41,676 bases of DNA from Candidatus Sulfopaludibacter sp. SbA3 (GTDB taxonomy: Bacteria > Acidobacteriota > Vicinamibacteria > Vicinamibacterales > UBA2999): contig CAMDNQ010000025.1 of assembly GCA_945903265.1 (NCBI GenBank), forward strand, positions 1 through 41,676, read 5' to 3'. Below, one piece after another: positions 25,383 to 41,216 of this stretch (its first letter is position 1; every line of letters starts with the position of its first letter). The notes under the pieces are model-generated. The model was not told where the DNA came from, searched no databases, and was given only the letters and a program-made list of their open reading frames with translations. Position numbers and translations under genes: made by a program.

Positions 25383-26174
25383 TCACTTCCGGCCCGTCGC
25401 AAACGCGGTGTCCACCGATTCGCGGGAGACCGAACCGCCGTGCCCGAGATAGAACATCTTGATAGGCCGCTTCAGTACCGCCTTGATGTTCTCGAGGTTG
25501 CGAGCGCGGTCGGCATGGAAGTCGTGCTCGCCAGCCCGATGGGAACTGAGCGCCCCACCCACGTAGCCTCCCGCCATCATGTCGCCGACAAATGCACGCC
25601 CGTCGTCGAACAATACGACCAACGAGCCCGGCGTGTGCCCGGGCATGGGGATCGCCTGTCCTCGAATGTCCCACGGTGTGAGGTCCAACGCGTCGTTCAC
25701 CGCGATGTCTGGCACAAACGACCTGAAGTGCAGGTCGATGATCAGGTGCTTGAACAAGAAAGCCGTGACGCCGGTCGGCTTGAGATCATCGTTGTGTCCG
25801 GCGTGGGCCATCCCGACGTCGCCCTAGCCCAAGGCAACCTTGGCGCCACCGACCCGCAGTTCAGCGGCAAGGCCGGCGTGATCGGAGGGGGCGTGGGTCA
25901 GGATAACGAGCGCGAGGTCCGCCGGCCGAAGGCCTCTCGGCGCAAGGGCCGTCGTGAGGGCGTCCAGATCTTTCGGAGAGCCGCCATCAATGAGTACGGG
26001 TCTGGCGGTCCTGATGAGAAAGACGTTGGAGAGACTCAGCTTGATCTGGACCACTTCCGGGGTAGGGCTCGACCCAGCAGTAGGCGCCGTTGCCTGGCCG
26101 CAGCCTTGCGCCACCGCCAGTGCGAGAAGCCACAAGACGCGTCCAAATCGCGGGGGCAACCTGTGAAGAGTCAC
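25383..26174 (-). pseudogene. MBL-fold lipoprotein gene interrupted by an in-frame amber codon
   Basis: One continuous reading frame of 263 codons before the TGA is cut by a single TAG at 25826-25824 (codon 117). Before it come a lipoprotein signal (LWLLALAVAQGC, Cys25), VFLIRTARPVLIDGG and LTHAPSDHAG; after it GHTPGSLVVLFDDGRAFVGDMM and MFYLGHGGS, the later metal motifs of the MBL fold. The first metal motif reads HAPSDH in place of HxHxDH: Pro96 (CCC) replaces the second His. The GTG start is one base after the stop of the SDR gene, so it ends the leftward operon. Probably inactive; an assembly error or stop readthrough is possible. Confidence 0.8.
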
Positions 26175-26175
26175 G

Positions 26176-27588
26176 TTAGGACCCGCCAAATCGGAGACGG
26201 ATGACGTCGCCTCGATACTGAAAGATCTTCCTGAGTGCCGAGCGGATGAAGACGCGATTCGCCAGCCGCCCGACGAGCCCGAGCGGCGGCGTGTAATACA
26301 CGCGATCCTCCATCACCGTGCGCGGGCCATCGGCCTGAAACGTGTGTTCGTGACACCAGAAGCGGTACGGGCCCATCTCTTGAAAATCGGCAAACCTTCG
26401 CCCCGGCTCCCACGCGGTGATGCGCGTGCGCCAGTGCACGGGCAGGGGACCGACGCGCACGCGGTAGTCGATCACAGCCCCCGCCGCCATCGGCGGCGCC
26501 TGTCCCTGAATGGAAAAGCGCATCGCCGCCGGCGTGATCACGCCGAGGTTCGCGGCCTTGGAGAAGAACGCGAACGTCTCCTCGAGCGGCGAAGCGATCA
26601 CCGTCCTGACCCGCAGTTCGTAGCGAGCCTCCCCGGCTCCTTCGGGTCTCGACTGCGCGGGCGAGATCGCGACGGCTGTGCCGCCGACAATGTCCTCGAG
26701 CGCCGAATCCACAGTTGGAAAGTCGAACGCGAACTGAAGCTCTCGCAGCACGCGAGGGTCGACGCGCTGGCTTGCCAGCAACACGGTGGCCGCCTGGCCA
26801 ACGATCACCTTGAGCGCCAGTGCCGGCAGCGGAAGCATCGCAGGGCGATGCAGGGCGCGCCCGAGCGCGCGCGCGAACGAGCGGCTCGTCGCCTGCTCGG
26901 GCGCCACGCCGTTCACGGGTCCGCGATAGCGGTCGTCGACGAGCGTCACGGCGATAATCTTCACCAGATCGTGGAGATGAATCCACGGCAGGTACTGCGT
27001 GCCCGATCCGACGGGCCCGCCCACACCCAACTGGAACGGCGGCAGCATCTGGGCCAGGGCGCCGCCGGCCCGACCCAGCACGACGCCGGTTCGCAGGAGC
27101 ACTACACGCGTACCCAGCCGCTCGGCGTCCTGGGCCGCGCTCTCCCACCTCCGGCACAACCGCGCCAGGAAATCGTCACTGCCACCCGACGCTTCGGTGA
27201 GCTGTTCGTCGGCGCGGTCACCGTAGTAGCCGACGGCGCTGCCGGACACCAAGACGCGCGGGCAGGACGTCGCCTCGGCCATGGCCCGCACCAGTTGCTC
27301 GGTGACGGTGATGCGGCTGTCTTCCAGAATCGCGCGGCGGGCGGCCGTCCATCGGCCACCGATGACCGGTTCGCCCGCCAGATTTACCACGGCGTCCGAA
27401 CGCGCCATCGCCGCGGCCAGCGCGCCGGGCGCCGTGTCAGCCCGAAGTAGCTCGACCTCGGGGCCCAGGAGGCTCCGGGCGCGCGCTGGTGAACGCACCC
27501 ACGCCACCACGGCATGCCCGTCGCGTTGGAGCCGCGGAATCAGCGCCCGCCCGACGAAACCGGTGGCGCCCGTCACGAACACACGCAT
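26176..27588 (-). CDS. TIGR01777-type SDR epimerase fused to SRPBCC domain
   Basis: A 470-residue cytoplasmic protein. Residues 1-300 are an atypical short-chain dehydrogenase of the YfcH/TIGR01777 type: VFVTGATGFVGRALIPRL (NAD(P) site), AVVNLAGEPVIGGRWT, RVLVSGSAVGYYGD and the C-terminal DUF1731-like LPLPALALKVIVGQAATVLLASQRVDP. Residues from about 320 (YELRVRTVIASPLEETFAFFSKAANLGVITP ... EHTFQADGPRTVMEDRVYYTPPLG) are a SRPBCC/START-like ligand-binding domain. Fusions of this type are known in gene clusters with photolyase, DUF523 and LitR. Substrate unknown. It follows the conserved 170-residue gene by 12 bases. Confidence 0.87.
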   Translation of the reverse strand: MRVFVTGATGFVGRALIPRLQRDGHAVVAWVRSPARARSLLGPEVELLRADTAPGALAAAMARSDAVVNLAGEPVIGGRWTAARRAILEDSRITVTEQLVRAMAEATSCPRVLVSGSAVGYYGDRADEQLTEASGGSDDFLARLCRRWESAAQDAERLGTRVVLLRTGVVLGRAGGALAQMLPPFQLGVGGPVGSGTQYLPWIHLHDLVKIIAVTLVDDRYRGPVNGVAPEQATSRSFARALGRALHRPAMLPLPALALKVIVGQAATVLLASQRVDPRVLRELQFAFDFPTVDSALEDIVGGTAVAISPAQSRPEGAGEARYELRVRTVIASPLEETFAFFSKAANLGVITPAAMRFSIQGQAPPMAAGAVIDYRVRVGPLPVHWRTRITAWEPGRRFADFQEMGPYRFWCHEHTFQADGPRTVMEDRVYYTPPLGLVGRLANRVFIRSALRKIFQYRGDVIRLRFGGS

Positions 27589-27600
27589 GCCGCGCCCTTC

Positions 27601-28113
27601 CTAGATCTTCCGGCTGTCGTACGCCCAGTGCAGGACGGCCTGTCGCTGCCGCCTCCGGCACTCGAGGTCGCCCGGCTCGCAGTTTTTGCGAATCGCGGCC
27701 ACGTGCCGGGCGACCGCCCGCCATCGTCGAATCTGCCGGGCGTCGTCGGCGCTCCTGCGGCCCATGTAGTACCGGCAGTACCACTGAAACCACCCGCGCG
27801 GATCCTGAGCGCGAAGCCAGCCGCTGCGGCGCCATATGGAGAGCGACTGCGAGGCGTTCACGCCGAAGCAGTTCAGGCGCGCGTCGTGCCGCTCGGCGCA
27901 CAGCTTGGCGCCCACGAACCAACTCGCGGGAAATTCCTGATCACAGTCCGTCATGTACTTCCCGCCGAAGACGCCCAGCCGCAGCATCTGTTTCGGCGTC
28001 AGATCCGGGGTGAAACCCGGCGCGAAGTTCCTGCCGACCGGCTTGGTCCGCCAGTAGACGTAGCCGTGCTGCATCCGATCGTTGACGATCACCTTCTTCG
28101 GCATCCCGGTCAC
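27601..28113 (-). CDS. Conserved protein of unknown function, aromatic-rich
   Basis: A 170-residue basic protein without signal peptide or membrane helix. Notable segments are VNDRMQHGYVYWRTKPVGRNF, TPKQMLRLGVFGGKYMTDC, GWFQWYCRYYMGRR and DLECRRRQRQAVLHWAYDSRKI, rich in Trp, Tyr and Arg with several cysteines. I recall similar unnamed proteins in plants, fungi and bacteria but cannot assign a function. The GTG start overlaps the DUF523-DUF1722 stop by four bases (GTGA), so its product is made with the stress-type genes of the operon. Confidence 0.7.
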   Translation of the reverse strand: MTGMPKKVIVNDRMQHGYVYWRTKPVGRNFAPGFTPDLTPKQMLRLGVFGGKYMTDCDQEFPASWFVGAKLCAERHDARLNCFGVNASQSLSIWRRSGWLRAQDPRGWFQWYCRYYMGRRSADDARQIRRWRAVARHVAAIRKNCEPGDLECRRRQRQAVLHWAYDSRKI

Positions 28114-29075
28114 ACGTGGTTGCGCAGCATCAACTCCACCGGATGCGGCCGCAGATAGACCTGATCCGCCAGATACGGCACGCCGCAGCGGCGAATGTGA
28201 TGGGCGAACAGCGTGAGCGGCACCACAAGCGGGACGCGCCCTCCGGCGTAGTCTTCGATGAGGGCGAGCAGTTCGGCCCTGCTGTCTCGGTCGAGCGTCT
28301 CTTTGAAGTAGCCGAGCATGTGCTGCAGCACGTTAGCGTGCCGGCGCGGCGTGGCCATGGTCGCGAGCGCCGTCATGAATTCGGTCGAATAGCGCTCCTG
28401 GAATTCGGGTCGCGGCATCGCCTTGCCTGATGCCACGAGGCGGCCCAGTCGCTGGTAGGCCTCCGGTCGGTGGGCCATGAGCGTGAGCTTGTGAGCCGTG
28501 TGGAACCGCACGACGTCGCCCATCGACCACCGTGCCGCAAACAGCGCCGTGAGCCGACGATACGCAAAGACGCGCTCCACGAAGTTCTCGCGCAGCCGCG
28601 GATCGTTGAGCCGCCCTTCCTCTTCGACCGGTAGCAGGGGAAAGCGCGTGACCAAGGCGTCGGCGAACAGTCCTCGGCCCGACTTCGCCGGCACCCCGCC
28701 GGTCCCGTAGACCTTGACGCGCTCGAGGCCACAGGTGGGCGAGTCTTTCTTCAACACGAAACCGAACAGCTCGCCGTCGGCCAGTTCCTCGACCCGGCGG
28801 CGCGCGTAGCCGCGCATGCGCGCGGTGTGATCCTGAGCCGACTTATTGGACAGCAGGCGAATCTGGCCGTCGGCCTGTACCAACCGCATCGATTCACGCG
28901 GGGCGTCCAGCCCCGACTCGACCTCCGGGCACACCGGCACCCAGTCGACGAACTGTCCAAGCGATTCCACCAAGAAGGGATCGCGCTTGTGGCCGCCGTC
29001 GAAGCGCACCGGTTCGCCGAGCAGACACGCCGAAATCCCGAGGCGGATCCGTTCATGGGTCATGGGGAGGCTCAT
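28110..29075 (-). CDS. DUF523-DUF1722 protein (YbgA-like fusion)
   Basis: A 321-residue cytoplasmic protein joining DUF523 (GISACLLGEPVRFDGGHKRD, VCPEVESGLDAPRE, FVLKKDSPTCGLERVKVY) with DUF1722 (about residue 190 on: FHTAHKLTLMAHRPEAYQRLG, HANVLQHMLGYF, PLVVPLTLFAHHIRR). The family is linked to DNA photolyase genes and light or oxidative stress clusters; some DUF523 members have proposed thiouracil-desulfidase activity. The conserved Cys residues in ACLLG and SPTCG are present. The ATG at 29075 overlaps the upstream TGA (ATGA); a second ATG is at 29063. Confidence 0.85.
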   Translation of the reverse strand: MSLPMTHERIRLGISACLLGEPVRFDGGHKRDPFLVESLGQFVDWVPVCPEVESGLDAPRESMRLVQADGQIRLLSNKSAQDHTARMRGYARRRVEELADGELFGFVLKKDSPTCGLERVKVYGTGGVPAKSGRGLFADALVTRFPLLPVEEEGRLNDPRLRENFVERVFAYRRLTALFAARWSMGDVVRFHTAHKLTLMAHRPEAYQRLGRLVASGKAMPRPEFQERYSTEFMTALATMATPRRHANVLQHMLGYFKETLDRDSRAELLALIEDYAGGRVPLVVPLTLFAHHIRRCGVPYLADQVYLRPHPVELMLRNHV

Positions 29076-30088
29076 ACCTTTCGATCGCGAATCCAACTGA
29101 ACGCACGGGGCGGCTGCTTCGCCAGCGCGGCCGCGGTACGCTCGGCCAGCCGCATGTACCGTTCGGACTGGCGGCAGAGTTCGTCTTGCGCCCGGGCCGC
29201 CTCACCCGTGACCGCTCGGCCCGCGATGTCCCAGGTCGTGACCAGGTGCTCGATGATGGAGGCGTAGTCGCGCACGGTGTAGACGTCGGTGCGCTGGGCG
29301 ACGACGGCAAAGTGATCGAACAGATCCGGATCCCTGCCGTCGTCCATGAACCGGCCGGGCATCGCGATGCGGCCGCGGAGCATCGATCGGAATGCGAGGA
29401 TCCCGCCCGCCGGATCGTGTTCGAGCACTTCCGCCATCATGCGCGTGTAGAACGCCTCGTGCCGCGCTTCGTCGCCGGCAATCACGCCGCAGATGCGGGC
29501 GAGGTTCGGGTCGCCGTGCCTGGCGGCGATCCGCCCGACGTTACCGTGTGACAAGCGCGTGGCGCGTTCCTGAAACGCGGTATACACCAGGAGGCTGTAG
29601 GGATCGGCCTGGCTCTGCGGATTGAAGCCGCTGGCCACGAGGCCATGGATCGTCCGTTCCACGGCGCGCATGTGCACGCGGCCGGTGAGACGGAGGTAAG
29701 CGTTGAGGAGATCGCCGTGGCGGTTTTCCTCTGCGGTCCAGCCCCGAAGCCATCGCGCCCAGGGAGCCGGGTTCATGCCCTCGTCATCCCTGACCAGTCC
29801 GTTGAGCGCGACGGAGTAACTGGGGAGCGCTTCTTCGGTGACCATGTCGCCCACCAGGACGACCAACAGCTCGTCGGAGACGGTCTCGGCGGCCGTTCGG
29901 AACCGTTCGACCTCGTCCCGCCAGCTCACCGCCTCGAGGTCCGGCAGATAGTCGGTGGGCTGCCACGCCCGGTCGAGCGGGAGCAACAGGCTCAGATTCG
30001 CAGCCACAGCCGGTTCGATCGCCCGGATCACGTCGTGGCGTTCTGCCAACGTGCGGTGGCATCGATCGGCGGACACAGGACGTTCCAT
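29072..30088 (-). CDS. Acyl-ACP desaturase-like diiron enzyme
   Basis: A 338-residue soluble protein of the plant-type stearoyl-ACP desaturase family (ferritin-like fold). The diiron ligand motifs are seen: DMVTEEALPSY, WTAEENRHGDLLNAY (ExxH) and VIAGDEARHEAFYTRMM (second ExxH). QERATRLSHGNVGR, between the two motifs, is also typical. These enzymes insert a cis double bond into acyl-ACP using O2 and ferredoxin. The product could feed the methyltransferase and flavin oxidoreductase encoded just upstream. GGGGAAGG lies two bases before the ATG; a GTG at 30100 is an alternative start. Confidence 0.87.
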   Translation of the reverse strand: MERPVSADRCHRTLAERHDVIRAIEPAVAANLSLLLPLDRAWQPTDYLPDLEAVSWRDEVERFRTAAETVSDELLVVLVGDMVTEEALPSYSVALNGLVRDDEGMNPAPWARWLRGWTAEENRHGDLLNAYLRLTGRVHMRAVERTIHGLVASGFNPQSQADPYSLLVYTAFQERATRLSHGNVGRIAARHGDPNLARICGVIAGDEARHEAFYTRMMAEVLEHDPAGGILAFRSMLRGRIAMPGRFMDDGRDPDLFDHFAVVAQRTDVYTVRDYASIIEHLVTTWDIAGRAVTGEAARAQDELCRQSERYMRLAERTAAALAKQPPRAFSWIRDRKV

Positions 30089-30100
30089 GACCTTCCCCAC

Positions 30101-31369
30101 CTAGGCCGCCGATTCGCTGGCGCCCGCACCGCGCTGTTGCACGGCGGGTTCAGACCACGGCTCGTTGAAGAGGACGCGCTGGGCCCCGTTCTTCGACAGA
30201 ACCAGCCGGAACAGCCCGGTGTGGCGTTCGAGGAACGTCGCTTCGCACGATCCCAGATACAAGTCCCACATGCGAATGAAGCGCTCGTCGAACCCAAGGG
30301 CACGCACGCGCGTGAGGTGCTGATGGAAGCGGGCGCGCCACGCGTGCAAGGTGCGCGCGTAGTGGGTGCCGCAATTCTCGGCGTGATACAGGGACAGCGA
30401 CGTCGTCCGCGCCAGCGACGCGAGTATTTCTCCCACTGACGCGAGTTCGCCGCCCGGAAAAATGTACTTCTCGATCCAGTCCGGGGTGCCGTGGTAGTGC
30501 GGGAACCACTGATCGTCCACCGTGATCGTCTGCAGGAACATCATGCCGTCCGGTGCCAGCAGGCGGTCGACGGCCGAGAAGTAGTCGTCGTAGTGCGTGA
30601 GACCGACGGCCTCGAACATCTCGATACTGACGACCTTGTCGAACCGCCCGGTCAGTTCCCTGTAGTCCGCGCGCAACACCTCGATGCGCGCACCGGCCTC
30701 GCCGATCCGCGACCGCCAGTCGCAGACGTGGCGATATTGTTCGTCGCTGATCGTCGTGGTCGTCACGCGGCAGCCGTAATGGGTCGCCGCCCAGACGGCG
30801 AAGCCACCCCACCCGCTGCCGATTTCGAGGACGTGGTCGCCGGGCGAGAGTCTCAGCGCCCGGCAGATGCGATCGACCTTCTGCGCCTGCGCCTGCTCCA
30901 GCCCGTCGGTGGCTGATTCGAAGTAACCGCAGGAGTACATGAGCAGATCGGCATCGAGGAAGAGGCGAAAGAAGTCGTTGCCGAGGTCGTAGTGCCGATG
31001 GATGTGCCGTCGGCTTCCGGCGAGCGAATTATCCCGGAGCCGACGGGCGATGCCGCCCGCCATCCGATGCAGCGCGCCTGCGAGGCGATTCTGCCCGTCG
31101 AGCACCCGCCGGTTGCGCAGCATCAGCCGCACCAGGGGCACCAGGTCGGGCGTCGTCCAGTCGCCGTCCATGAAGGACTCGCCGAGGCCGATGTCGCTGC
31201 CCAGGAGGGCCCGCAGGAAGAACCGCTCGTCGCTGACCGTCAGGGTCGCATCCAACTCGCCAGGCTCGCCGTACCGGTACGTGCGGTCTGGGCACTCCAC
31301 GGTCAGCGTTCCCCCGGTCACGCCGCCGAGGCCAGAGAGAAACGCCGTCTTCGCCCACTGCGTCAGCAT
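30101..31369 (-). CDS. CFA synthase-like / UfaM-like SAM-dependent fatty acyl methyltransferase
   Basis: A 422-residue enzyme with the cyclopropane fatty acid synthase fold: HYDLGNDFFRLFLD, MYSCGYFE, the SAM loop VLEIGSGWGGFAVWA, SIEMFEAVG and WIEKYIFPGGELASV. The His of the E. coli CFA synthase bicarbonate site (LLHTI) is Gln here (MFLQTI), and EHVG is EAVG. These are features I associate with the subgroup that sits beside flavin oxidoreductase and DUF1365 genes and includes furan-fatty-acid methyltransferase UfaM. It may thus add a methyl branch and not a cyclopropane ring. AAGGAG eight bases upstream supports the ATG at 31369. Confidence 0.88.
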   Translation of the reverse strand: MLTQWAKTAFLSGLGGVTGGTLTVECPDRTYRYGEPGELDATLTVSDERFFLRALLGSDIGLGESFMDGDWTTPDLVPLVRLMLRNRRVLDGQNRLAGALHRMAGGIARRLRDNSLAGSRRHIHRHYDLGNDFFRLFLDADLLMYSCGYFESATDGLEQAQAQKVDRICRALRLSPGDHVLEIGSGWGGFAVWAATHYGCRVTTTTISDEQYRHVCDWRSRIGEAGARIEVLRADYRELTGRFDKVVSIEMFEAVGLTHYDDYFSAVDRLLAPDGMMFLQTITVDDQWFPHYHGTPDWIEKYIFPGGELASVGEILASLARTTSLSLYHAENCGTHYARTLHAWRARFHQHLTRVRALGFDERFIRMWDLYLGSCEATFLERHTGLFRLVLSKNGAQRVLFNEPWSEPAVQQRGAGASESAA

Positions 31370-31374
31370 GCTCC

Positions 31375-32178
31375 TTACTCCTTCCACGAACCAGCCTGTC
31401 GCGTCGTCATCGCCGCCTGAGCCGCGCGTTCGCCAACGCCATCAGCCGTGACACGCGGCACGACAGGCGCGCCCTTCCACCAGAGTTTCAGCGCCTCCCA
31501 GTGAATCCCGGCCATCACCCGCGCGGTCATCGCGGGATACCGCACGAGCACCCGCCGTATCTCCCCCGCGCTCCAGGGCCGGCGTTCAAGCGACAGCGTC
31601 GCATCGAAGCCGACCGATCCCGCCTGACTGGTCTCCATGTGGGCCACCAGGCGGCCGTCTGGCGGCGTGAAGGCGAACGTGTACTCGAGGTCGGCCGGCA
31701 TGAACGGCGAGACGTACAGCGACTTCGCGGCCCCGGCGCGAAAGGTGCGGGAGGCCGGATCGGGCCGAAGCCAGTAGCGGTGACTTCCGCCGAAGGTGTT
31801 GCGCACCTCGGCCAGGACCACCTGCAGCCGGTCCGCCCCATCAAAGCAATAGAAGAAGGAGACCGGATTGAAGCAGTACCCGAGATACCGCAGGTGGGTC
31901 AGCAGGAAGATACGGCCTGCTGGCAGTTCGATCCCGTGGCGTGTCGCGTCGACGACGAGCCGGTCCCGGAGGGGAAGGGCCGGATCGCCAAGATGATCGC
32001 GATCGTCGAAGCTGGCCCAGTTCCAGCGGTTGTGGCTCGTGAGCCGCGACAGCCGCATCAGCTCCGGGACGCGATCGATGTCGAGCAGAGCCATGAACAG
32101 GGGATACGTGAAGACGTGCTCGACGGGCGTGAATCGCCGGTGGCGCAGCGTGCCGACGAATAATCCCGAGTCGATCAC
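31375..32178 (-). CDS. DUF1365 family protein
   Basis: A 267-residue protein with DUF1365 signatures: LFVGTLRHRRFTPVEHVFTYPLFMALLDID at the start, SHNRWNWASFDDRDHLGD, FLLTHLRYLGYCFNPVSFFYCFD, EVRNTFGGSHRYWL and KSLYVSPFMPADLEYTF. The family is almost always found between a flavin amine-oxidase-like gene and a CFA-like methyltransferase, as here; its chemistry is unknown. The GTG at 32178 overlaps the upstream TGA by four bases (GTGA). It may be a partner subunit in lipid modification. Confidence 0.9.
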   Translation of the reverse strand: MIDSGLFVGTLRHRRFTPVEHVFTYPLFMALLDIDRVPELMRLSRLTSHNRWNWASFDDRDHLGDPALPLRDRLVVDATRHGIELPAGRIFLLTHLRYLGYCFNPVSFFYCFDGADRLQVVLAEVRNTFGGSHRYWLRPDPASRTFRAGAAKSLYVSPFMPADLEYTFAFTPPDGRLVAHMETSQAGSVGFDATLSLERRPWSAGEIRRVLVRYPAMTARVMAGIHWEALKLWWKGAPVVPRVTADGVGERAAQAAMTTRQAGSWKE

Positions 32179-33436: not shown

Positions 33437-33465
33437 TAAATACCAGTCCAACCCTGTAGTGTCAA
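33437..33465 (-). promoter_or_regulatory. Promoter of leftward (flavin oxidoreductase) operon
   Basis: On the minus strand: perfect TTGACA (33465-33460), a 17-base spacer and TATTTA (33442-33437). The -35 is the left outer end of the palindrome at 33460-33492. The predicted leader before the ATG at 33425 is about five bases. Confidence 0.65.
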
Positions 33466-33492: not shown

Positions 33493-33515
33493 ACATGAAC
33501 GCGCAGGAGTAGCGT
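33487..33515 (+). promoter_or_regulatory. Promoter of rightward (regulator-containing) operon
   Basis: Perfect TTGACA (33487-33492), a 17-base spacer and a weak TAGCGT -10 (33510-33515). The strong -35 with a poor -10 fits a promoter under control. The first gene starts at 33553 with GAAGG nine bases ahead. Confidence 0.55.
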
Positions 33516-33552
33516 CTGTGACTACACCGCGTTCGAGAGAAGGTTAAAGACC

Positions 33553-33735
33553 ATGTTCAAAACGGGCGACTTTCTGATTCTTGGCGCCGCATTCGTCTCG
33601 TTTCTGTTTTCTGTCGCGCTCTGGTTCGGCATAGCGGGTCCACCGAACAAGGAGGCCGGGCTCTTTGTCGGCCTATGGGTCCCGTCGATTCTGGCGACTG
33701 GGGTCTACTTCGCGATCCGCAGCGGAAGGAGGTAG
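33553..33735 (+). CDS. Small two-helix membrane protein
   Basis: A 60-residue protein with two hydrophobic segments (DFLILGAAFVSFLFSVALWF and GLFVGLWVPSILATGVYFAI) joined by the polar loop IAGPPNKEA. No known family is named with certainty, but the KEAGLFVGLWVPSIL core is familiar from other short bacterial membrane proteins. It is the first gene of the rightward operon, right after the operator, and its end carries the ribosome site of the next small gene. Confidence 0.75.
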   Translation: MFKTGDFLILGAAFVSFLFSVALWFGIAGPPNKEAGLFVGLWVPSILATGVYFAIRSGRR

Positions 33736-33738
33736 GCC

Positions 33739-33876
33739 GTGGACACCCTTATCTTCACGATCGGCGTGTGCGTCACGCTTCTCCTCGCGGGCGGATTGAC
33801 ATTTACGGTTCTCGAAGTGAAGCGGCTTGAACGACGGGGACTGCAACAGACCGATGACACCCGGTTCCCCCTCTAG
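33739..33876 (+). CDS. Small single-helix membrane protein (45 residues)
   Basis: A GTG-started frame of 45 residues: one hydrophobic helix (LIFTIGVCVTLLLAGGLTFTVL) followed by a charged tail (EVKRLERRGLQQTDD). The ribosome site AAGGAGG lies six bases upstream, inside the last codons of the preceding gene (only three bases between the genes), which strongly supports translation. Its end overlaps the start of the SDR gene by 23 bases. It may pair in the membrane with the 60-residue protein. Function unknown. Confidence 0.65.
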   Translation: MDTLIFTIGVCVTLLLAGGLTFTVLEVKRLERRGLQQTDDTRFPL

Positions 33877-34693
33877 GCGGCTAGTGGTGGGCTGTGGATA
33901 CCTGGGCCGGCGGGTCGCGCAATCGTGGTGCGACGCGGGGGACCAGGTGTACGCCGCCACACGAGGAGCAAGGGCGGATGCCCTGGCTCAGACGGGGCTG
34001 GCGCCGCTGACGATGGATGTCACCCGGCTTCCGTCATCGCTCGCCCTACCGCCGGTCGACACGGTGCTGTTTGCGGTGGGGCGAGACCCCAGGGCCGCCG
34101 CCTCGATGTTCGACATTCACGTCACCGGGCTGCGCGCGGTGCTCGACAGGCTGCCCGCGTCTACGGGCCGGGTGATTTATGTGAGTTCGACCGGGGTCTA
34201 CGGGCAGGACGCCGGCGACTGGGTGGATGAAGACTCGGAGTGCGGACCCAGGCGGGAGGGGGGAGCCGCATGCCTCGCCGGCGAACAGCTGCTCTTTGCG
34301 CACGCGCGCGGCCGTAACGCGATCGTGTTGCGGTTGGCCGGACTCTACGGGCCGGCACGTGTGCCGCATCGGGCGGATATTGCAGCAGGCAGATTGATTG
34401 CCGGCGCCCCTGAGGCGTTCGTCAATCTGATTCACGTGGATGATGCCGCGCGCGCCGTGGCAGCTGCCGCCGATTTGGGGCCGGTGGCCGGTCGCACTTA
34501 CGTGGTGTCCGACGGTCGCCCCGCGGCGCGCCGGGAGTATGTCGCGCAGTTGGCCGCGCGACTGGGAGTGGCCCCACCGAGGTTCGAAGGCGGCAGTGGC
34601 CTCGGGAAGCGCGTGCGAAATGCGCGAGCCGTCGACGAGTTGGGCCTGCGGCTGCAGTACCCCTCGTACCGCGAAGGGCTTGCGGGGGTGTAA
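33854..34693 (+). CDS. NAD(P)-dependent epimerase-like SDR (YeeZ type)
   Basis: A 279-residue extended SDR protein. The cofactor site is RLVVGCGYLGRRVAQSW (GxGxxG type, as in YeeZ-like proteins). Further marks are VDTVLFAVGRDP, IYVSSTGVYGQDAGDWVDEDS with the catalytic Ser/Tyr region, VLRLAGLYGPARVP and AFVNLIHVDDAARAVAAA. Substrate unknown. ATG 33854 lies inside the end of the preceding small gene, giving a 23-base overlap; a TTG at 33827 would lengthen the overlap. It is one of three SDR proteins in the island. Confidence 0.85.
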   Translation: MTPGSPSRRLVVGCGYLGRRVAQSWCDAGDQVYAATRGARADALAQTGLAPLTMDVTRLPSSLALPPVDTVLFAVGRDPRAAASMFDIHVTGLRAVLDRLPASTGRVIYVSSTGVYGQDAGDWVDEDSECGPRREGGAACLAGEQLLFAHARGRNAIVLRLAGLYGPARVPHRADIAAGRLIAGAPEAFVNLIHVDDAARAVAAAADLGPVAGRTYVVSDGRPAARREYVAQLAARLGVAPPRFEGGSGLGKRVRNARAVDELGLRLQYPSYREGLAGV

Positions 34694-34727
34694 GCGCGGG
34701 GGGCCGAGGTCAATTCGAGGAATGGAG

Positions 34728-35132
34728 ATGTTCATGGGACAGACAATCAAGCTTGCGGCGATCGGCGCAGTGGCGTTCATGATGCTCGACGGCATCTGGC
34801 TCGGCGTGGTGATGAAGAACTTCTACCGCGACCAGCTCGCGCCCATCGTGCGCCTCTCCAACGGCGGCATCGCACCCAACTGGCCCGCAGCGCTGGTCGT
34901 CTATGCCCTGCTCGGGACGGGCATCGCCCTCTTCGTCCTCCCCCGCGCGGCAACCGTCTCGCTTGCGGCGGTCTACGGCGCATTGTTCGGCCTCGTGGTG
35001 TACGGGGTCTACGACTTCACCAACTACTCGACGCTGCGCCAGTGGCCGTTCGTGCTGACGCTGGCCGACGTGGCGTGGGGTGCGGTGGCATCGGCAGCGG
35101 CCGCGGCGGCAGTCCGGTTCCTGGTTCGATAA
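34728..35132 (+). CDS. DUF2177 family membrane protein
   Basis: A 134-residue protein with four helices: IKLAAIGAVAFMMLDGIWLGVVM, PAALVVYALLGTGIALFVLP, LAAVYGALFGLVVYGVYDFTNYST and LTLADVAWGAVASAAAAAAVRFLV. The MMLDGIWLG, YGVYDFTNYSTL and DVAWG signatures are those of DUF2177, a family often found beside CFA-like methyltransferase and photolyase genes. Chemistry unknown. ATG codons at 34722, 34728 and 34734 are all possible; 34728 is chosen because GAGG lies seven bases upstream. Confidence 0.87.
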   Translation: MFMGQTIKLAAIGAVAFMMLDGIWLGVVMKNFYRDQLAPIVRLSNGGIAPNWPAALVVYALLGTGIALFVLPRAATVSLAAVYGALFGLVVYGVYDFTNYSTLRQWPFVLTLADVAWGAVASAAAAAAVRFLVR

Positions 35133-35143: not shown

Positions 35144-36082
35144 GTGGGCTCTCCGCTCTACCCGATCCGGGCCGTCTCCAAGCTGACCGGCATCGGCGTC
35201 GACACGCTGCGCGCCTGGGAGCGACGCCATCATGCCGTCACGCCCATCCGCGACAACCGGGGCCGGATGTACACGGACGCGGAGGTGGCGCGCCTGCGGC
35301 TCCTGCAGGGCGCCCTGTCCAACGGGCACAGCATCGGCCGCCTGGCGGCGCTCAGCGATGACCAGCTGCGCGCATTGGTAGCCGCCGTCGAACCGGCTCC
35401 GGTACCGGCGGTGGATCCGACGCGACGGGCGCCGCTCGACACGGCCGCGCTCGTCGGTGCCTTGCACTCCTATGACGCCGCACGGATCGACCACGAACTG
35501 GCTCGGCTGGCGGCCGTGCTACGCCCGCTCGAACTGCTCCAGGATGTGCTGATGCCCCTGCTCGCGCAGATGGGCGACGACTGGCACCGCGGCCGCGCGT
35601 CGATCGCGCAGGAACACGTGATGTCGTCCGCCGTGCGCACGATCCTCGGGTCCCTCCTTCGCCTGTACGCACACGCCAACGTGCCAGCTCGGTTGCTCTT
35701 TGCCACGCCCGCCGGTGAGCGCCACGAACTCGGAACGCTCGGGGCGGCGCTGCTTGCGGCCAGCAGCGGCCTCAGGGTGGCCTATGTCGGGGCCGACCTG
35801 CCCGCCCGCGACATCATCGACAGCGTGCGGGCGGCCGGCGCGCAGGTGCTTGTACTGGGGCTGACCGCGGTCCCGAATGGGAAAGCAAGAGAACGGGATC
35901 GTCGCGCGCAGGAGGGGGAGCTTCAAACGATCGTCCGCGATCTGCCGCGGGAGATCGAACTGTGGGCGGGCGGCCGCGGCGCCGAGCGCTCCGCGGCGAT
36001 CATCGCCCCACGAGGACTGGTCTTGCCCGACTACCACGCCTATCAACAAGAACTCGCCCGCATCGGTGGACGCCTCCCATGA
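35144..36082 (+). CDS. litR: B12-dependent photoreceptor regulator, MerR family (LitR/CarH type)
   Basis: A 312-residue regulator. Residues 6-70 are a MerR-type winged helix (YPIRAVSKLTGIGVDTLRAWERRH). Residues from about 100 form a helical bundle and a cobalamin-binding Rossmann domain. The light-sensing signature W-x9-EH is exact (Trp147, Glu157-His158), and the lower-ligand motif ExHxxG is Glu192, His194, Gly197. In CarH and LitR these bind adenosylcobalamin: the dark tetramer represses and light breaks it. It probably controls the operons on both sides through the palindrome at 33460-33492, and so its own gene. GTG start, 11 bases after DUF2177; its stop overlaps the TonB ATG. Confidence 0.92.
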   Translation: MGSPLYPIRAVSKLTGIGVDTLRAWERRHHAVTPIRDNRGRMYTDAEVARLRLLQGALSNGHSIGRLAALSDDQLRALVAAVEPAPVPAVDPTRRAPLDTAALVGALHSYDAARIDHELARLAAVLRPLELLQDVLMPLLAQMGDDWHRGRASIAQEHVMSSAVRTILGSLLRLYAHANVPARLLFATPAGERHELGTLGAALLAASSGLRVAYVGADLPARDIIDSVRAAGAQVLVLGLTAVPNGKARERDRRAQEGELQTIVRDLPREIELWAGGRGAERSAAIIAPRGLVLPDYHAYQQELARIGGRLP

Positions 36083-38481
36083 CAGCCGTGACTCTTCGCG
36101 TGCACTCGCGTCCTTCGCCTGTACGCACCAGGTCTGCGCTGGCCGGTGCCATCCTGATCGTCGTCGCCGCGTCTGCCGCCGCACAGGACACGACCGGCGT
36201 CGGGGCCATCAGGGGCGTGGTCGTGAACGCCGTTGGCCAGCCGACCGAGGGAGTACGCGTCTGCGTGCTCGACACATCCGCCTGCGCCACGAGTGACGCC
36301 CGGGGCGCTTTTCGCATCGGCGAACTTCGGGCGGACGCGTATCGCTTGGAGATCCTGCCGCTCGAAGGGTTGCCGTTCACCAGCGAACCGGTCGACGTGC
36401 GTGCCGGGATGGAGGGCACCGTGGACATCACGCTGGCCAAGGTGGAGAACCTGCAGGAAACGGTCACCGTCACGGCGCCGGCCTTTCAGGCCCCCGAGGC
36501 CGTCAAGACGTCGGGCTTCGTGACCGAGCCTCGCGAGATCCTCAAGAGCGCAGCGGCACTGCAGGACGTGTCGCGCTACGTCCAGGGCTTGCCCGGCGTG
36601 GCGATTGGCACCAACGATTTCCGCAACGACATCATCGTCCGGGGCGGCAGCCCCCTCGAGAATCTGTTCGTCGTGGATAACGTCGAGATTCCCAACATCA
36701 ACGCGTTCGCCAACTTCGCGTCGGCCGGGGGCACCGTGGGCTTGCTGGATGCCGAATTGCTACAGGACGTGACCTTTCTCACCGGTGGCTACCCTGCGCC
36801 CTATGTCAACCGCACCTCGAGCGTGCTGCAGGTGACCCAGCGCGAAGGTAGCCGCCGGGCATTCGGCGGGAAGACGACGGTCGGCTTTGCCGGCGCCGGC
36901 GCCATTTTCGAAGGCCCCCTCGGCGCGGGCAAGGGCTCGTGGGTGGTATCGACGCGGCGCAGCTTCCTGGATCTGGTGACCAAGGACGTGGGTATCGGCG
37001 GCGTGCCGGTGTTGTACACGGTCAACGCTAAGGCCGTGTATGACCTCACGCCCACCGACCGCGTCTGGGCGGTGAACATTGCCGGCGTCGACAAGATTCG
37101 CCTCGGGCTCAACGATTCCACCGACCTCACGGATGAACTGGCCAACTTCGACATCCGGTACAACGGGTGGCGTAGCGCCACGGGCGTCAACTGGCAACGG
37201 ATCTTCGGGGCGCGTGGCGTCGGTCTGCTCGGTGTCACCAACTCCGAAGCCAAGGTTGGCCAGCAGGTGAAAGACCTCGTGGCCCAGGGTGCTCCCCCGG
37301 CCGGTGTCCTGCCAGGGGATCTCATCGCCAACAGCCCGGTGGTGTACTTCGAGAACTCGCGGGAACGCGAGACCACGGTGAAGTACGATCTGACCGTGCA
37401 CGCGAGGTTCTCCACGACCGTGCAAACTGGCGGCAGCGTCAAGCAGTTACGCGCCAACTACCGGGTGGACTCGCCTTACGGCAACGACACGCCGTACTCA
37501 CCGGTGACGGGGATCAACGCGTTCTCGCTCAACACGCGCTTCCGCTCGTATCAGACTGGGGCCTACCTGCAGGTGTCGAGACAGGTCATGCCCCGGGTGA
37601 ACCTCACCGTCGGTGGACGCGTCGACGACTACGCCATCCTGTCGCAGACCAGATTCAGCCCGCGGGCGGGCGTCAAGGTGCGTCTCACCAACGCCCTGTC
37701 GTGGAACTCGAGCGCCGGGTCGTACTACCAGCAGCCACCGCTCCTCTTCGTGACGGCCTTTCCCCAGAACAAGGAGCTCGCCCCATGGCGCGCCGATCAC
37801 TACGTCACGGGACTTTCCTGGTCGGCCAGCACCGATCTCCGAGTCACTGCCGAGACGTATCGAAAAGCCTACAGCGACTATCCGGTGGCAAGCGATCTGC
37901 CCTCGGTATCACTGGCCAACATCGGTGACACCTTCGCCGTGCGCGAGATCCTCTTCCCGCTGACGAGCGCCGGTACGGGGTACTCGCAGGGCGTGGAGTT
38001 CTTCGTGGAGAAGCGCCTCACCTCGAAGATCTACGGACAGGGCAACCTGTCCTTCTCGCGCACGCGCTACACAGGCCTCGATGGGGTGCTCCGGCCTGGG
38101 TCGTTCGACTACCCGTTCGTCTTTAACGTGCTCGGCGGTTACCGGCTCTCGCCGGCGTGGGAACTCTCAACCCGGCTCTCGTTTCTGTCGGGTCGGCCAT
38201 TCACACCTTACGATCAGGCGGCGTCTCTCGCACAGCGGCGCGGCGTGTACGACCTCACCCGCGTCAATGCCGAACGAGCGCCCGACTACGGCCGAGTGGA
38301 CGTCCGCGTGGACCGCACGTTCACCGTCGGCGGACAGCCGCTCAACCTCTTCTTGGGCGTGCAGAATCTGACAAACCGTCGGAATTTTGCCAGCTACAAC
38401 TGGAACCGCCGCACGAACGCGCTGCAGTTCGGCGAGCAGCAGGGCATCTTTCCGATCCTGGGACTTGACTGGCGGTTCTAG
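36079..38481 (+). CDS. TonB-dependent receptor in the light-regulated operon
   Basis: An 800-residue outer-membrane receptor: signal peptide (SALAGAILIVVAASAAAQ), carboxypeptidase-regulatory-like domain (GAIRGVVVNAVGQPTEGVRVCVLDTSACATSDARGAFRIGEL, about residues 40-120), plug (ETVTVTAPAFQAPE ... DVSRYVQGLPGVAIGTNDFRNDIIVRGGSPLENLFVVDNVEIPN) and a barrel ending GLDWRF. The plug VRGG signature is well preserved. The ATG overlaps the regulator's TGA (ATGA), so it is made with the photoreceptor. Ligand unknown; cobalamin would be tempting given the regulator but nothing in the sequence shows it. Confidence 0.92.
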   Translation: MTAVTLRVHSRPSPVRTRSALAGAILIVVAASAAAQDTTGVGAIRGVVVNAVGQPTEGVRVCVLDTSACATSDARGAFRIGELRADAYRLEILPLEGLPFTSEPVDVRAGMEGTVDITLAKVENLQETVTVTAPAFQAPEAVKTSGFVTEPREILKSAAALQDVSRYVQGLPGVAIGTNDFRNDIIVRGGSPLENLFVVDNVEIPNINAFANFASAGGTVGLLDAELLQDVTFLTGGYPAPYVNRTSSVLQVTQREGSRRAFGGKTTVGFAGAGAIFEGPLGAGKGSWVVSTRRSFLDLVTKDVGIGGVPVLYTVNAKAVYDLTPTDRVWAVNIAGVDKIRLGLNDSTDLTDELANFDIRYNGWRSATGVNWQRIFGARGVGLLGVTNSEAKVGQQVKDLVAQGAPPAGVLPGDLIANSPVVYFENSRERETTVKYDLTVHARFSTTVQTGGSVKQLRANYRVDSPYGNDTPYSPVTGINAFSLNTRFRSYQTGAYLQVSRQVMPRVNLTVGGRVDDYAILSQTRFSPRAGVKVRLTNALSWNSSAGSYYQQPPLLFVTAFPQNKELAPWRADHYVTGLSWSASTDLRVTAETYRKAYSDYPVASDLPSVSLANIGDTFAVREILFPLTSAGTGYSQGVEFFVEKRLTSKIYGQGNLSFSRTRYTGLDGVLRPGSFDYPFVFNVLGGYRLSPAWELSTRLSFLSGRPFTPYDQAASLAQRRGVYDLTRVNAERAPDYGRVDVRVDRTFTVGGQPLNLFLGVQNLTNRRNFASYNWNRRTNALQFGEQQGIFPILGLDWRF

Positions 38482-38486: not shown

Positions 38487-38912
38487 ATGTTCCGCGTCCT
38501 CGCCGCCGCCTGTGTCATTGGAGTGCTCGTCATGTCGATTGCCACACTTCGAGCCGGAACCGCGCAAGATTCCTTGCGGGTCGGTGATCGGCTTCCCCTC
38601 CTCAAGGGACAGTTCTTATCGGGCCGTGATGCCGAGCTACCGCTGGCGTCGTCGGGCACGGTCGCGCTGGTGGCAATGGGCTTCACGTACAAGTCTCGAT
38701 TCCCGGTCGAGGCGTGGGGTGAGTGGTACCGCGCGACGCGAGGCCAGCGCTCGGACATCACGTTCTTCATCGTCATTGACAAGACAGCGATCGTGCGGTG
38801 GCTCCATCGGGGCGGGTTCGACCAGGCGCGCGCCGATGAGCTGCACGGAATTCTCACGTCGCTCGCCGACGGAAGCACAACGATGGCCGTTCACAACCGC
38901 CCGGATTGGTGA
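38487..38912 (+). CDS. Small secreted protein, thioredoxin-fold remnant-like
   Basis: A 141-residue exported protein (signal segment VLAAACVIGVLVMSIATLRAGTAQ). The part RVGDRLPLLKGQFLSGRDAELPLASSGTVALVAMGFTYKSRFPVEAWGEWY resembles the first half of a TlpA/ATP10-like thioredoxin fold without an active-site CxxC. FFIVIDKTAIVRWLHRGGFDQARADELHGILTSL resembles its end. The centre expected between them seems too short, so an internal deletion is possible. It starts five bases after the TonB receptor and overlaps the next gene by four bases (GTGA). Confidence 0.65.
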   Translation: MFRVLAAACVIGVLVMSIATLRAGTAQDSLRVGDRLPLLKGQFLSGRDAELPLASSGTVALVAMGFTYKSRFPVEAWGEWYRATRGQRSDITFFIVIDKTAIVRWLHRGGFDQARADELHGILTSLADGSTTMAVHNRPDW

Positions 38913-40390
38913 AGCGAGCCGTGACGGCACATGAACCGCGCGGGGAGGAGAGACCTGCCGTTCTCCTGACCGGCGCGACCGGGTACATCGGCGGACGGCT
39001 GGTGTCCGTCCTCGAATCCGCTGGCGTTCCACTGCGCTGTCTGGCGCGGCAACCGGCCGCGCTCGCCTCTCGCGTGTCGCCGACGACGGAGATTGTCACC
39101 GGTGATCTCCTCGACCCGGCGTCACTCGAGCGCGCGCTGACGGGCATCGACGTGGCCTATTACCTCGTGCACTCCATGGGAACCCACGGCGACTACCGTG
39201 ATACCGATCGCGTGGCCGCCCGTAATTTCGGCGAAGCGGCGCGGCGGGCTGGAGTGCGCAGGATCGTCTACCTCGGTGGCCTCGCGACGGGCAACGAGCC
39301 CCTCAGCAAGCATCTCAGCAGCCGCATCGAGACCGGCCAGACACTGCGGGACAGTGGCGTTCCGGTCGTGGAATTTCGCGCCTCGGTCGTCATCGGATCC
39401 GGGAGCCTGTCGTTCGAATTGATCCGCGCGCTCGTCGAGCGGTTACCGGTGATGATCTGCCCGCGGTGGGTCTCGACCTTGGCGCAACCCATCGGCATCG
39501 ATGACGTGCTCGCGTATTTGGCAGCGGCGCTGCACCTGCCCGACGCGGAGAGCCGCACGTTCGAAATCGGCGGGGCCGATCAAGCGAGCTACGGCGACGT
39601 GATGCGCGAGTACGCGCGGCAGCGCGGGCTGAGGCGGGTCATGATTTCAGTGCCGCTGCTCACGCCGCGCCTGTCGAGCCTGTGGCTGGGGCTGGTGACG
39701 CCGGTCTACGCGCGGGTCGGGCGCGAATTGATCGACGGGCTGAAGAATCGGTCCGTCGTCACTGATCCCGCGGCGCTCACGGCATTCCCGATCAGGCCCG
39801 TCGGCCTGCGCGACGCGATCGGTCGCGCCATTCGCCACGAGGATCGCGCCTTTGCGTTGACCCGCTGGTCGGATGCGCGCTCCTCGGGAGGAGCGACAGG
39901 GTCGCCGGCTGACACGCGCATTGGGAGCAAGTTGATCGACCGACGGCAGATCCACGTGGCGGTCGATGCGGACCGCGCCTTTCGTCCCATCGCGGGCATC
40001 GGGGGCGAGCGCGGCTGGTATTTCGGCACGTGGCTGTGGCGCATCAGGGGCGCGGTCGACCTCCTGATGGGCGGCGTGGGGATGCGTCGGGGGCGGCGCG
40101 ACCCTGACGCGCCGGCCGTCGGCGACACGCTCGACTTCTGGCGCGTCGAGGCCTACGAACCGGGCCGACGATTGAGGCTCGCGGCGGAAATGAAGTTACC
40201 GGGGCGCGCGTGGCTCGAGTTCGAGGTGGTGCCGGGCGCGGACGGCGCGGTGGTGCATCAGACGGCTGTGTTCGAACCGGCCGGACTGTCCGGCCTGCTC
40301 TACTGGTATGGACTCATGCCGGTGCACGCGGTGATCTTCGGCGGGATGCTGCGCGCGATCGCACGGCGGGCTCAGGGCGGCCGCGCGTGA
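38909..40390 (+). CDS. SDR oxidoreductase with DUF2867 domain
   Basis: A 493-residue protein. Residues 15-310 are an SDR/NmrA-like NAD(P)-binding domain (AVLLTGATGYIGGRLVSVL, EIVTGDLLDPASLERAL, VAYYLVHSMG, RRIVYLGGLA). Residues from about 335 are DUF2867 (RRQIHVAVDADRAFRPIAGIGGERGWYFGTWLWRIRGAVDLLMGGVGMRRGRRDP, WRVEAYEPGRRLRLAAEMKLPGRAWLEFEV). The GTG at 38909 overlaps the preceding stop (GTGA). The architecture, SDR plus lipid-binding-like tail, mirrors the TIGR01777-SRPBCC protein at the other end of the island. Substrate unknown. Confidence 0.88.
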   Translation: MKRAVTAHEPRGEERPAVLLTGATGYIGGRLVSVLESAGVPLRCLARQPAALASRVSPTTEIVTGDLLDPASLERALTGIDVAYYLVHSMGTHGDYRDTDRVAARNFGEAARRAGVRRIVYLGGLATGNEPLSKHLSSRIETGQTLRDSGVPVVEFRASVVIGSGSLSFELIRALVERLPVMICPRWVSTLAQPIGIDDVLAYLAAALHLPDAESRTFEIGGADQASYGDVMREYARQRGLRRVMISVPLLTPRLSSLWLGLVTPVYARVGRELIDGLKNRSVVTDPAALTAFPIRPVGLRDAIGRAIRHEDRAFALTRWSDARSSGGATGSPADTRIGSKLIDRRQIHVAVDADRAFRPIAGIGGERGWYFGTWLWRIRGAVDLLMGGVGMRRGRRDPDAPAVGDTLDFWRVEAYEPGRRLRLAAEMKLPGRAWLEFEVVPGADGAVVHQTAVFEPAGLSGLLYWYGLMPVHAVIFGGMLRAIARRAQGGRA

Positions 40391-40406
40391 TCGCTGACGC
40401 CCCGTC

Positions 40407-41216
40407 ATGCCGGAAGGCCCGGCGGTCGTGACCGGCACGATGACGGCGCTCGCCGGCCTGGGCGTCATCCTGACGGCCCTGACGCTCGCGTGGATCTTCA
40501 GTGTGAAGTTGCGGGATGCCAGTATTGCAGACGTCTGCTGGGGCTCGGGCTTCGTGCTGCTGGCGTGGCTGTACTGTCTGCTGTCGCCGACGTTGACATC
40601 ACGGTCCTGGCTGGTCGCGGTCCTGATCACGCTGTGGGGCGCTCGTCTCTCCCTGCACATCGTTCGCCGCAATCATGGAAAAGGCGAGGACCCGCGCTAT
40701 CAGGCGATGCGCGCCTCGCACGGACGGGCGTTCTGGTGGCGGAGCCTCTTCACCGTGTTCTGGCTCCAGGGCACGATCCTGTGGTTCGTCGCCCTTCCGG
40801 TGCTCGTCGCGGTGCGCGCCGCTCAGCCGGCCGAGTTCACCGTCCTCGATGGCCTGGGAGTCGTGCTCTTCGCGGTTGGATTCGGCTTCGAGGTCGTGGG
40901 CGACGCTCAACTCGCGCGCTTCAAGGCCGAGCCGTCGAGTCGCGGGCACGTGCTCGACCGTGGGCTGTGGCGGTACACGCGGCATCCCAACTACTTTGGA
41001 GACGCCACCCTGTGGTGGGGCCTGTATGCCATCGCGGCCGCAACGCCGGGCGGATGGCTCACCGTGCTGAGCCCGGCCCTCATGACCTTCCTCCTGATGC
41101 GCGTGTCCGGGGTGACGCTGCTCGAGGACGGCCTCAAAGCCTCGAAGCCGGGTTACCGGGCGTACATCGCTCGCACGCCGGCGTTCTTCCCCTGGTTTCC
41201 GCGCGCGCCGAGGTGA
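40407..41216 (+). CDS. DUF1295 membrane protein (steroid 5-alpha-reductase-like)
   Basis: A 269-residue protein with about seven helices. The N-terminal SIADVCWGSGFVLLAWLY and the C-terminal FKAEPSSRGHVLDRGLWRYTRHPNYFGDATLWWGLY are the DUF1295 signatures; the RHPNYFG motif is shared with isoprenylcysteine methyltransferases and steroid reductases. Such proteins are often encoded with CFA-like methyltransferase, DUF1365 and SDR-DUF2867 genes, so a role in lipid modification is likely. The ATG at 40440 is an alternative start. It is the last clear gene of the rightward operon. Confidence 0.87.
   Translation: MPEGPAVVTGTMTALAGLGVILTALTLAWIFSVKLRDASIADVCWGSGFVLLAWLYCLLSPTLTSRSWLVAVLITLWGARLSLHIVRRNHGKGEDPRYQAMRASHGRAFWWRSLFTVFWLQGTILWFVALPVLVAVRAAQPAEFTVLDGLGVVLFAVGFGFEVVGDAQLARFKAEPSSRGHVLDRGLWRYTRHPNYFGDATLWWGLYAIAAATPGGWLTVLSPALMTFLLMRVSGVTLLEDGLKASKPGYRAYIARTPAFFPWFPRAPR

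Follow-up and report, generated by a model that had tools for sequence, protein, structure and literature searches.

A divergent gene island joins ufa homologues to a CarH-type photoreceptor gene

In a 41,676-nucleotide contig of Candidatus Sulfopaludibacter sp. SbA3 (Acidobacteriota; GenBank assembly GCA_945903265.1, contig CAMDNQ010000025.1; hereafter the window), two operons diverge from a 127-bp gap at 33426-33552. One carries homologues of the furan fatty acid genes ufaD, ufaO and ufaM, and the other carries a gene for a CarH/LitR-type B12 photoreceptor. An earlier note, made from the letters of the window, had described a light-responsive lipid-remodelling island here, and domain searches together with open reading frame (ORF) coordinates bore out its gene list, strands and point of divergence. 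The minus-strand operon begins with the ufaD homologue (32175-33425; PF01593, 2.2e-19), which would encode a methyl-fatty-acyl desaturase of the flavin adenine dinucleotide (FAD) amine-oxidase type. It is followed by the ufaO homologue (31375-32178, minus strand; PF07103, 3.8e-77), a DUF1365 gene for a putative O2-dependent furan-forming protein whose GTG start overlaps the ufaD stop by 4 bp, and then by the ufaM homologue (30101-31387, minus strand; PF02353, 2.3e-83), a predicted CMAS-type S-adenosylmethionine-dependent fatty-acyl methyltransferase given here as its longest ORF, so that its start may lie downstream. PF02353, PF01593 and PF07103 proteins are thus encoded side by side. In the methylated furan fatty acid pathway described in the parts of PMC7380195 consulted, UfaM acts first, methylating cis-vaccenate within phospholipid; its product is then desaturated by UfaD, and formation of the furan with O2 falls to UfaO, which is a DUF1365 protein. 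Because all three families are present, the lipid change that the earlier note had left as methylated, desaturated or furan-type is narrowed to the furan type, and its lipid reading as a whole is partly supported.

The trio is a stable unit well beyond the window. UfaD homologues (E up to 1e-20) were found in 33 of 99 related genomes. In a wider survey of the best 80 of 540 candidate UfaD loci, UfaO and UfaM homologues both lay downstream of UfaD on one strand in 77, with UfaO in 78 and a CMAS protein in 78; the three loci lacking the full trio (L112, L124 and L138) are short contigs cut by contig ends. By their record titles, these 80 loci span Acidobacteriota, Proteobacteria, Nitrospirota, Planctomycetota and others. 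One record, L095/G007, carries an acidobacterial locus under the title 'Acidimicrobiia bacterium', and its label is probably wrong. The island itself holds one UfaM. A second, weakly similar CMAS protein (24-33%) is present at several relatives' loci; L042, L044 and nine of the loci L098-L108 (11 in all) have such a methyltransferase at 24-30% identity to UfaM. Judged by family, this second protein could be a FufM candidate, giving dimethyl furan acids in those relatives.

The photoreceptor gene (35144-36082, plus strand, probable GTG start at 35144; PF13411, PF02607) encodes a MerR helix-turn-helix (HTH) and a B12-binding domain. Its product matches the solved Thermus CarH (5c8d; E 3.1e-21), with the W-x9-EH motif and the E-x-H-x2-G form of the D/E-x-H-x2-G motif aligned. 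Among 17 aligned CarH sequences, all 17 have the Trp and the B12 His, and 16 have EH. Against the NCBIfam CarH equivalog NF052513 it scores 1.1e-28 and 100 bits, below the 400-bit cut-off, which by that model's rule leaves it outside the group, though related to it. Gene order was compared in relatives as the earlier note had proposed, and the divergent layout, whole or partial, recurs in 12 related genomes (13 of 20 stretches), which argues that the arrangement is more than chance.

A conserved palindromic operator candidate lies between the operons

Within the gap we identified a 33-bp palindrome (33460-33492), a candidate CarH operator whose outer TTGACA half-sites fall at the predicted -35 elements of both divergent promoters. 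Alignment of 28 chosen sites gave the consensus TGTCAA-N4-TTGTCATGGACAA-N4-TTGACA with 14 invariant columns, and the window matches 25 of the 25 fixed positions. Its half-sites are TnnACA motifs at 11-bp steps, set as two inverted pairs; across the 41.7-kb window, the tandem TnnACA pair is present at this site and nowhere else. Published CarH operators, as described in parts of PMC9304148, are 11-bp TnnACA repeats, one of them with the -35 inside; here, too, TnnACA half-sites spaced by 11 bp cover a -35, the -35 and -10 assignments being predictions. On the CarH side, TAnnnT lies 16-18 bp from the -35 in 23 of the 28 sites, while shuffling of the ufaD-side flank gives TAnnnT in a mean of 1.2 and a maximum of 6 of 28.

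The site is conserved in relatives. When the DNA upstream of ufaD was compared among 21 relatives' loci, a conserved block appeared in the window and in the loci of the 13 closest relatives, and it was not at ufaD in the seven loci L047-L053 nor directly at ufaD in L046, where it stands before a desaturase gene that precedes ufaD. A pattern search of the 99 related genomes with up to three mismatches returned 51 rows, spread over 30 genomes. Nineteen rows have at most two mismatches, and each of them lies at a ufaD and/or CarH promoter; CarH is within 4 kb in 17 of them; in the other two (G005 contig C9 and G002 contig C217) the contig ends first. Of the 32 rows with three mismatches, some repeat the same sites in reverse reading and the rest are scattered. 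The operator also stands at CarH promoters without an adjoining ufa gene (G086 contig C11 and G029 contig C17). Eight more distant acidobacterial genomes, chosen because their CarH genes at ufa loci already showed the site, were searched at two mismatches or fewer. Besides the eight known sites, this gave a ninth at another CarH gene of G197 and a single stray match on G198 contig C756; the reversed-pattern control gave two matches.

Two of these CarH loci have their own gene content. At the second locus of G197 (contig C251, L260:15-5209), the same operator is present, and CarH, DUF2177 and SDR-DUF2867 genes are paired with an SDR-SRPBCC gene that a ferrochelatase gene follows. This gene set suggests that the window island joins two CarH modules, and the ferrochelatase hints at a possible further role of CarH in controlling haem synthesis. 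Protoporphyrin, a haem precursor, is a photosensitiser. In G029, the contig C17 locus (L084, about 22895-27767) holds a CarH paralogue with its own operator, followed on the same strand by HlyD- and MacB-like export genes.

In its own genome, no further operator site was found at up to three mismatches, the same site read backwards aside. A second match of gap DNA (33512-33553, 84% over 42 bases, to contig C29) was considered as an operator and set aside, since that sequence resembles part of a histidine-kinase gene, as judged by reading and not by family search; the similarity is perhaps a relic in the intergenic region. The earlier note had remarked on the lack of a photolyase, and there is none among the island proteins. 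Elsewhere in the genome, a photolyase domain was matched once, by a C-terminal fragment where contig C28 ends. With this contig-end piece and no further operator match at up to three mismatches, we rejected a photolyase as a hidden member of the regulon.

ufaD is co-inherited with CarH, and most divergent-CarH loci carry one of two desaturases

Window-type ufaD occurs in 15 of the 99 genomes, and CarH (E 1e-30 or better) is present in 13 of these 15 compared with 6 of the 84 others (Fisher p 4e-10, ancestry ignored). Scattering of these genes in relatives, which the earlier note had named as a sign against its reading, was thus not what we found: ufaD and CarH are inherited together, and a conserved operator is common to both.

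Directly downstream of ufaM lies a gene for a soluble di-iron acyl-ACP desaturase (FA_desaturase_2) of the plant stearoyl-ACP desaturase type (29072-30100, minus strand; PF03405, 4.7e-125; castor 1afr, E 4.9e-101). Aligned to castor 1afr, it has the di-iron segments EENRHG and DExRHE. An acyl-ACP desaturase was found in 9 of the 18 genomes searched among the 99, every time inside the ufa operon, with a further partial match in G005; it was not found in three ufa-bearing genomes (G034, G059 and G093) nor in six picked as lacking ufaD. Other loci have a membrane desaturase, no more than 0.7 kb upstream of ufaD and on its strand (21 of 108 loci), which matches PF00487 in the two checked by hidden Markov model.

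To compare like with like, we set aside L085 (too little ufaD) and three duplicates, and of the remaining 104 loci, 83 extended 1.3 kb or more before the ufaD start and 5.6 kb or more beyond it. Seventeen of these have a divergent CarH: seven carry the acyl-ACP desaturase, seven the membrane desaturase, three neither and none both. The other 66 include seven with the membrane desaturase, none with the acyl-ACP type and none with both. A desaturase therefore accompanies 14 of 17 divergent-CarH loci and 7 of 66 others (p 2e-8, ancestry ignored). Two non-homologous enzymes fill one slot, presumably as suppliers of substrate for UfaM. That unrelated desaturases occupy the same operon slot argues, on evolutionary grounds, that the pathway requires a double-bond supply of its own. 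No FabA scored above the cut-off in the six genomes tested, its own included.

The TonB receptor and the remaining genes

Immediately after carH comes a TonB-dependent receptor gene (36079-38481, plus strand; PF00593, PF13620, PF07715) with a carboxypeptidase-regulatory-like N-domain, its ATG overlapping the carH stop by 4 bp. Homologues (E 1e-60 or better) gave 32 match rows in 27 of the 99 genomes, and in 14 of the 32 rows the receptor adjoins CarH (in G088 with one CMAS gene between). In a tree of 28 receptor sequences, the window's group contributes nine CarH-linked receptors that make up one clade (support 1.000); a CarH link recurs in three further lineages, a pattern that either repeated recruitment or repeated loss of the link could give. 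Around 14 loci whose receptors are not beside CarH, no neighbours were conserved except one cluster of ORFs antisense to the receptor. The window receptor did not match the TonB-B12 model TIGR01779 (BtuB); its only match was TIGR04056 at 22 bits, far below the cut-off, and it had no match to a solved receptor at E up to 1. Another TonB receptor, on contig C18 of the same genome, stands directly behind a cobalamin riboswitch together with a BtuF-like binding protein and is 25% identical to the window receptor over 330 aa. This pairing argues against the window receptor being the main B12 receptor. No riboswitch match was found in the window, and of 224 first-look candidates in the genome only 93 were scored, so that one may have been missed. 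We set aside corrinoid import as a function of the window receptor, as riboswitch, sequence and neighbourhood gave it no support, and kept it as part of an alternative weighed below.

The plus-strand operon starts with two genes for small hydrophobic membrane-type proteins with no Pfam match, of 60 aa (33553-33735; 70% identical in L041 and 58% in L098) and 45 aa (33739-33876; it follows the 60-aa gene in L041 and L098). Next come genes for an SDR/epimerase-like protein (33854-34693, probable start 33854; PF01370, 9.9e-15) and a DUF2177 membrane protein (34722-35132; PF09945, 2.3e-30), both ahead of carH. Behind the receptor, the earlier gene list had overlooked a redoxin/ATP10-like ORF of 141 aa (38487-38912, plus strand). 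It has no Pfam match of its own, although one relative has an ATP10 match below the cut-off, and it has about 55 internal residues fewer than the relatives' 184-196-aa protein, so it is perhaps degenerate or decaying. The plus-strand operon closes with an SDR-DUF2867 gene (38906-40390; PF11066, 9.9e-34; PF13460, 3.6e-17) and a DUF1295 membrane protein gene (40407-41216; PF06966, 1.1e-72).

On the minus strand, the desaturase gene is followed by a fusion of a DUF523-type (2-thiouracil desulfurase family) part and DUF1722 (28110-29096; PF04463, PF08349) and by a gene for a highly conserved 170-aa protein (27601-28113) with no Pfam or NCBIfam match at 0.001. This protein is present in 17 of 193 genomes of the class, and two ufa loci of gamma-proteobacteria (L129 and L168) encode it at 66% identity. 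Its structure prediction from 19 sequences was of low confidence, with a mean predicted local distance difference test (pLDDT) of 42. A relationship to ribosomal protein S6 was dismissed; the best phmmer match in the PDB reached only E 0.052 and was taken as chance. The last gene of the operon (26176-27588, minus strand) encodes a TIGR01777 SDR (5.6e-99) with a C-terminal SRPBCC-like part (PF10604, 8.2e-6, below the cut-off). The island thus ends at 26176 and not at 25383, where the earlier note had placed its boundary, and 25383-26175 lies outside it; a 142-aa ORF there (25383-25811) had no Pfam match and no match in the 20 relatives' stretches searched. Overlaps of one to four bases had been called widespread. 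Overlaps of 4 bp hold for three gene pairs (ufaD/ufaO and carH/receptor, read in the DNA, and DUF523-DUF1722/170-aa, from ORF coordinates), while the remaining pairs abut or depend on the choice of start codon.

The earlier suggestion that every gene of the island, including the TonB receptor, the SDRs, DUF523-DUF1722 and the 170-aa protein, serves lipid remodelling is not supported. Several of them also occur together on contig C7, in a second cluster of this genome (about 131242-137462; L226:7243-13463) that has neither ufa genes nor CarH. This cluster encodes homologues of the SDR-DUF2867 protein (58% identical), the TonB receptor (56%), the 170-aa protein (81%) and DUF523-DUF1722 (66%), together with a fasciclin protein, and an HTH-cupin regulator gene diverges from it.

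The UfaO homologue was also modelled. The model is confident (mean pLDDT 93.5 and predicted template modelling score 0.90, from 64 sequences) and consists of a beta-barrel with C-terminal helices. The sequence had no PDB match up to E 10. The best Foldseek match of the model was the fatty-acid-binding-like barrel 3bdr at E 3.1e-3, with none at 0.001 or better, and a second structural comparison gave Z scores up to 7.7 (OlmO spirocyclase) and 7.4 (nitrobindin). Because Z scores under 8 may reflect a common barrel only, a haem-binding role for UfaO is a lead from the model, not a result.

A model for light-controlled furan lipid synthesis and its alternatives

Gene set and order, CarH motifs, operator conservation, co-inheritance and the recurrent desaturase are all features of the sequences compared, and from them we consider it probable that the region as a whole is a CarH-controlled furan-fatty-acid island. 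Control of furan-lipid synthesis by CarH is very likely on this genomic evidence. In the dark, CarH loaded with adenosylcobalamin would sit on the palindrome at 33460-33492, covering the -35 of both divergent promoters, and repress both operons, carH included. Light would break the Co-C bond of adenosylcobalamin and release CarH from the DNA, and we infer that both operons would then be expressed. The acyl-ACP desaturase would supply an unsaturated acyl chain, UfaM would methylate it, UfaD would desaturate the product to a methyl-diene, and UfaO would add oxygen from O2, closing the furan. Such a furan may then shield membranes from photo-oxidation. Should the desaturase share the delta-9 position of the castor enzyme, the furan would be placed at other carbons than in Rhodobacter.

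Several observations weigh against this model. The site is palindromic, whereas the consulted parts of PMC9304148 describe CarH operators as tandem direct repeats; in addition, the initial T of TnnACA is missing from one inner half-site. On the ufaD side, TAnnnT occurs in only 7 of the 28 sites, and the window (TATTTA) is not among them; a strict sigma-70 scan of the gap found no promoter. The operator pattern was drawn from some of the loci later searched, so what the search can show is the lack of close matches elsewhere, rather than their presence at those loci. The reversed-pattern control in the 99 genomes gave 9 rows at up to three mismatches, with no breakdown by mismatch level. In the co-inheritance count, the line defining window-type ufaD (57% identity) was drawn after the list had been seen, at a gap in it; two of the 15 genomes (G061 and G071) lack CarH, and the Fisher tests ignore shared ancestry. 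The CarH relative in G029 has GH in place of EH. Three of the 17 divergent-CarH loci have no desaturase. The window's genome also encodes a separate PF00487 desaturase on contig C2, which means that double bonds do not come from the acyl-ACP enzyme alone. Plant delta-6 and delta-4 enzymes are nearly as good matches to the island desaturase as delta-9 enzymes are, and sequence therefore does not fix the chain position of desaturation. Finally, UfaM and cyclopropane synthases are indistinguishable by family score alone.

This last point opens the question of whether the CMAS protein makes cyclopropane or plain methyl-branched acids, with the island a general light-stress membrane operon and no furan formed. 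Its best phmmer matches among solved structures are cyclopropane synthases, and it scores 302 bits against the cyclopropane synthase model NF008686, though this is below the 400-bit cut-off. We think this unlikely, since UfaO and UfaM homologues stand behind UfaD in 77 of the 80 surveyed loci and, in the consulted parts of PMC7380195, UfaD and UfaO act on the UfaM product. A different signal is also conceivable. The operon might answer mainly to cobalamin shortage, with apo-CarH leaving the DNA and the TonB receptor importing corrinoid and so restoring repression. CarH of the species studied in the available portion of PMC9304148 needs adenosylcobalamin to bind, the receptor gene overlaps carH, and receptor homologues stand beside CarH in four lineages of the tree. 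Yet the genome has its riboswitch-linked receptor on contig C18, 18 of the 32 receptor rows are not next to CarH, and neither a riboswitch in the window nor a match of the receptor to the TonB-B12 model or a solved receptor was found; we regard control by cobalamin shortage as improbable.

Control could also rest, as in Rhodobacter, with a singlet-oxygen-responsive pair of an extracytoplasmic function (ECF) sigma factor and ChrR, leaving CarH a bystander. A Rhodobacter chrR mutant accumulates more furan acid, according to the parts of PMC7380195 at hand. However, no sigma or ChrR domain, and hence no ECF sigma-ChrR pair beside the cluster, was found among the island proteins, the rest of the genome not having been searched for them, and the conserved site is a CarH-type repeat that also marks CarH promoters with no ufa neighbours. 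Such control is very improbable. Returning to control of furan synthesis by CarH, a fuller version strikes us as possible but doubtful. It would make the island a self-contained acidobacterial light-to-furan-lipid pathway, in which one B12 switch and a new palindromic operator command all steps from saturated acyl-ACP to furan, two unrelated desaturases separately fill the first step and set a furan position unlike that in Rhodobacter, and the TonB receptor is a light-gated importer tied to CarH.

Comparison with known systems

The pathway and the kind of sensor are each known, and we did not find their joint layout, with CarH amid ufa genes, described. A literature search that covered little subscription content returned no paper on furan fatty acids with Acidobacteria, with CarH or with an acyl-ACP desaturase, and none on a LitR photoreceptor with Acidobacteria. 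In Acidobacteriota, the island would form a direct link between furan fatty acid genes and a B12 photoreceptor, and it offers a precise, directly testable 33-bp operator candidate. The two desaturase types suggest furan acids with new positions, and the operator together with ufaDOM would make a simple signature for finding light-controlled furan-lipid producers. The acyl-ACP desaturase and the TonB receptor, whose presence had looked unusual in the earlier note, are a recurring trait of one clade.

The Ufa pathway in the consulted parts of PMC7380195 comprises RSP1091 (ufaD), RSP1090 (ufaO) and ufaM in Rhodobacter sphaeroides and RPA2569-2571 in Rhodopseudomonas palustris. The island shares its three families, and they are neighbours as in R. 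palustris, where by locus number RPA2571 is ufaD, RPA2570 ufaO and RPA2569 ufaM. Unlike Rhodobacter, in which the pathway is linked to ChrR, the island has an adjoining CarH and a desaturase inside the operon, and its host belongs to the Acidobacteriota. In Pseudomonas, LitR-family regulators (PplR1-3 and PmlR1-2) control light-inducible genes that include ufaM, as far as the excerpts of PMC9758184 describe; the regulators there are likewise of the LitR/CarH family, and the region also holds genes for an FAD oxidoreductase, an SDR and a photolyase. The Pseudomonas proteins are class II LitR, with a LOV protein as readout in P. mendocina and sites of the TGTACA-N12-TGTACA type, whereas the island has intact B12 motifs, another operator, no photolyase, and an added desaturase and TonB receptor. 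With the CarH switch of Myxococcus, Thermus and Bacillus, as given in parts of PMC9304148, it has in common the adenosylcobalamin motifs and the 11-bp TnnACA half-sites with a -35 inside. That switch acts on carotenoid genes through tandem direct repeats, while the predicted targets here are furan-lipid genes, and the operator candidate is built as two inverted pairs for divergent promoters.

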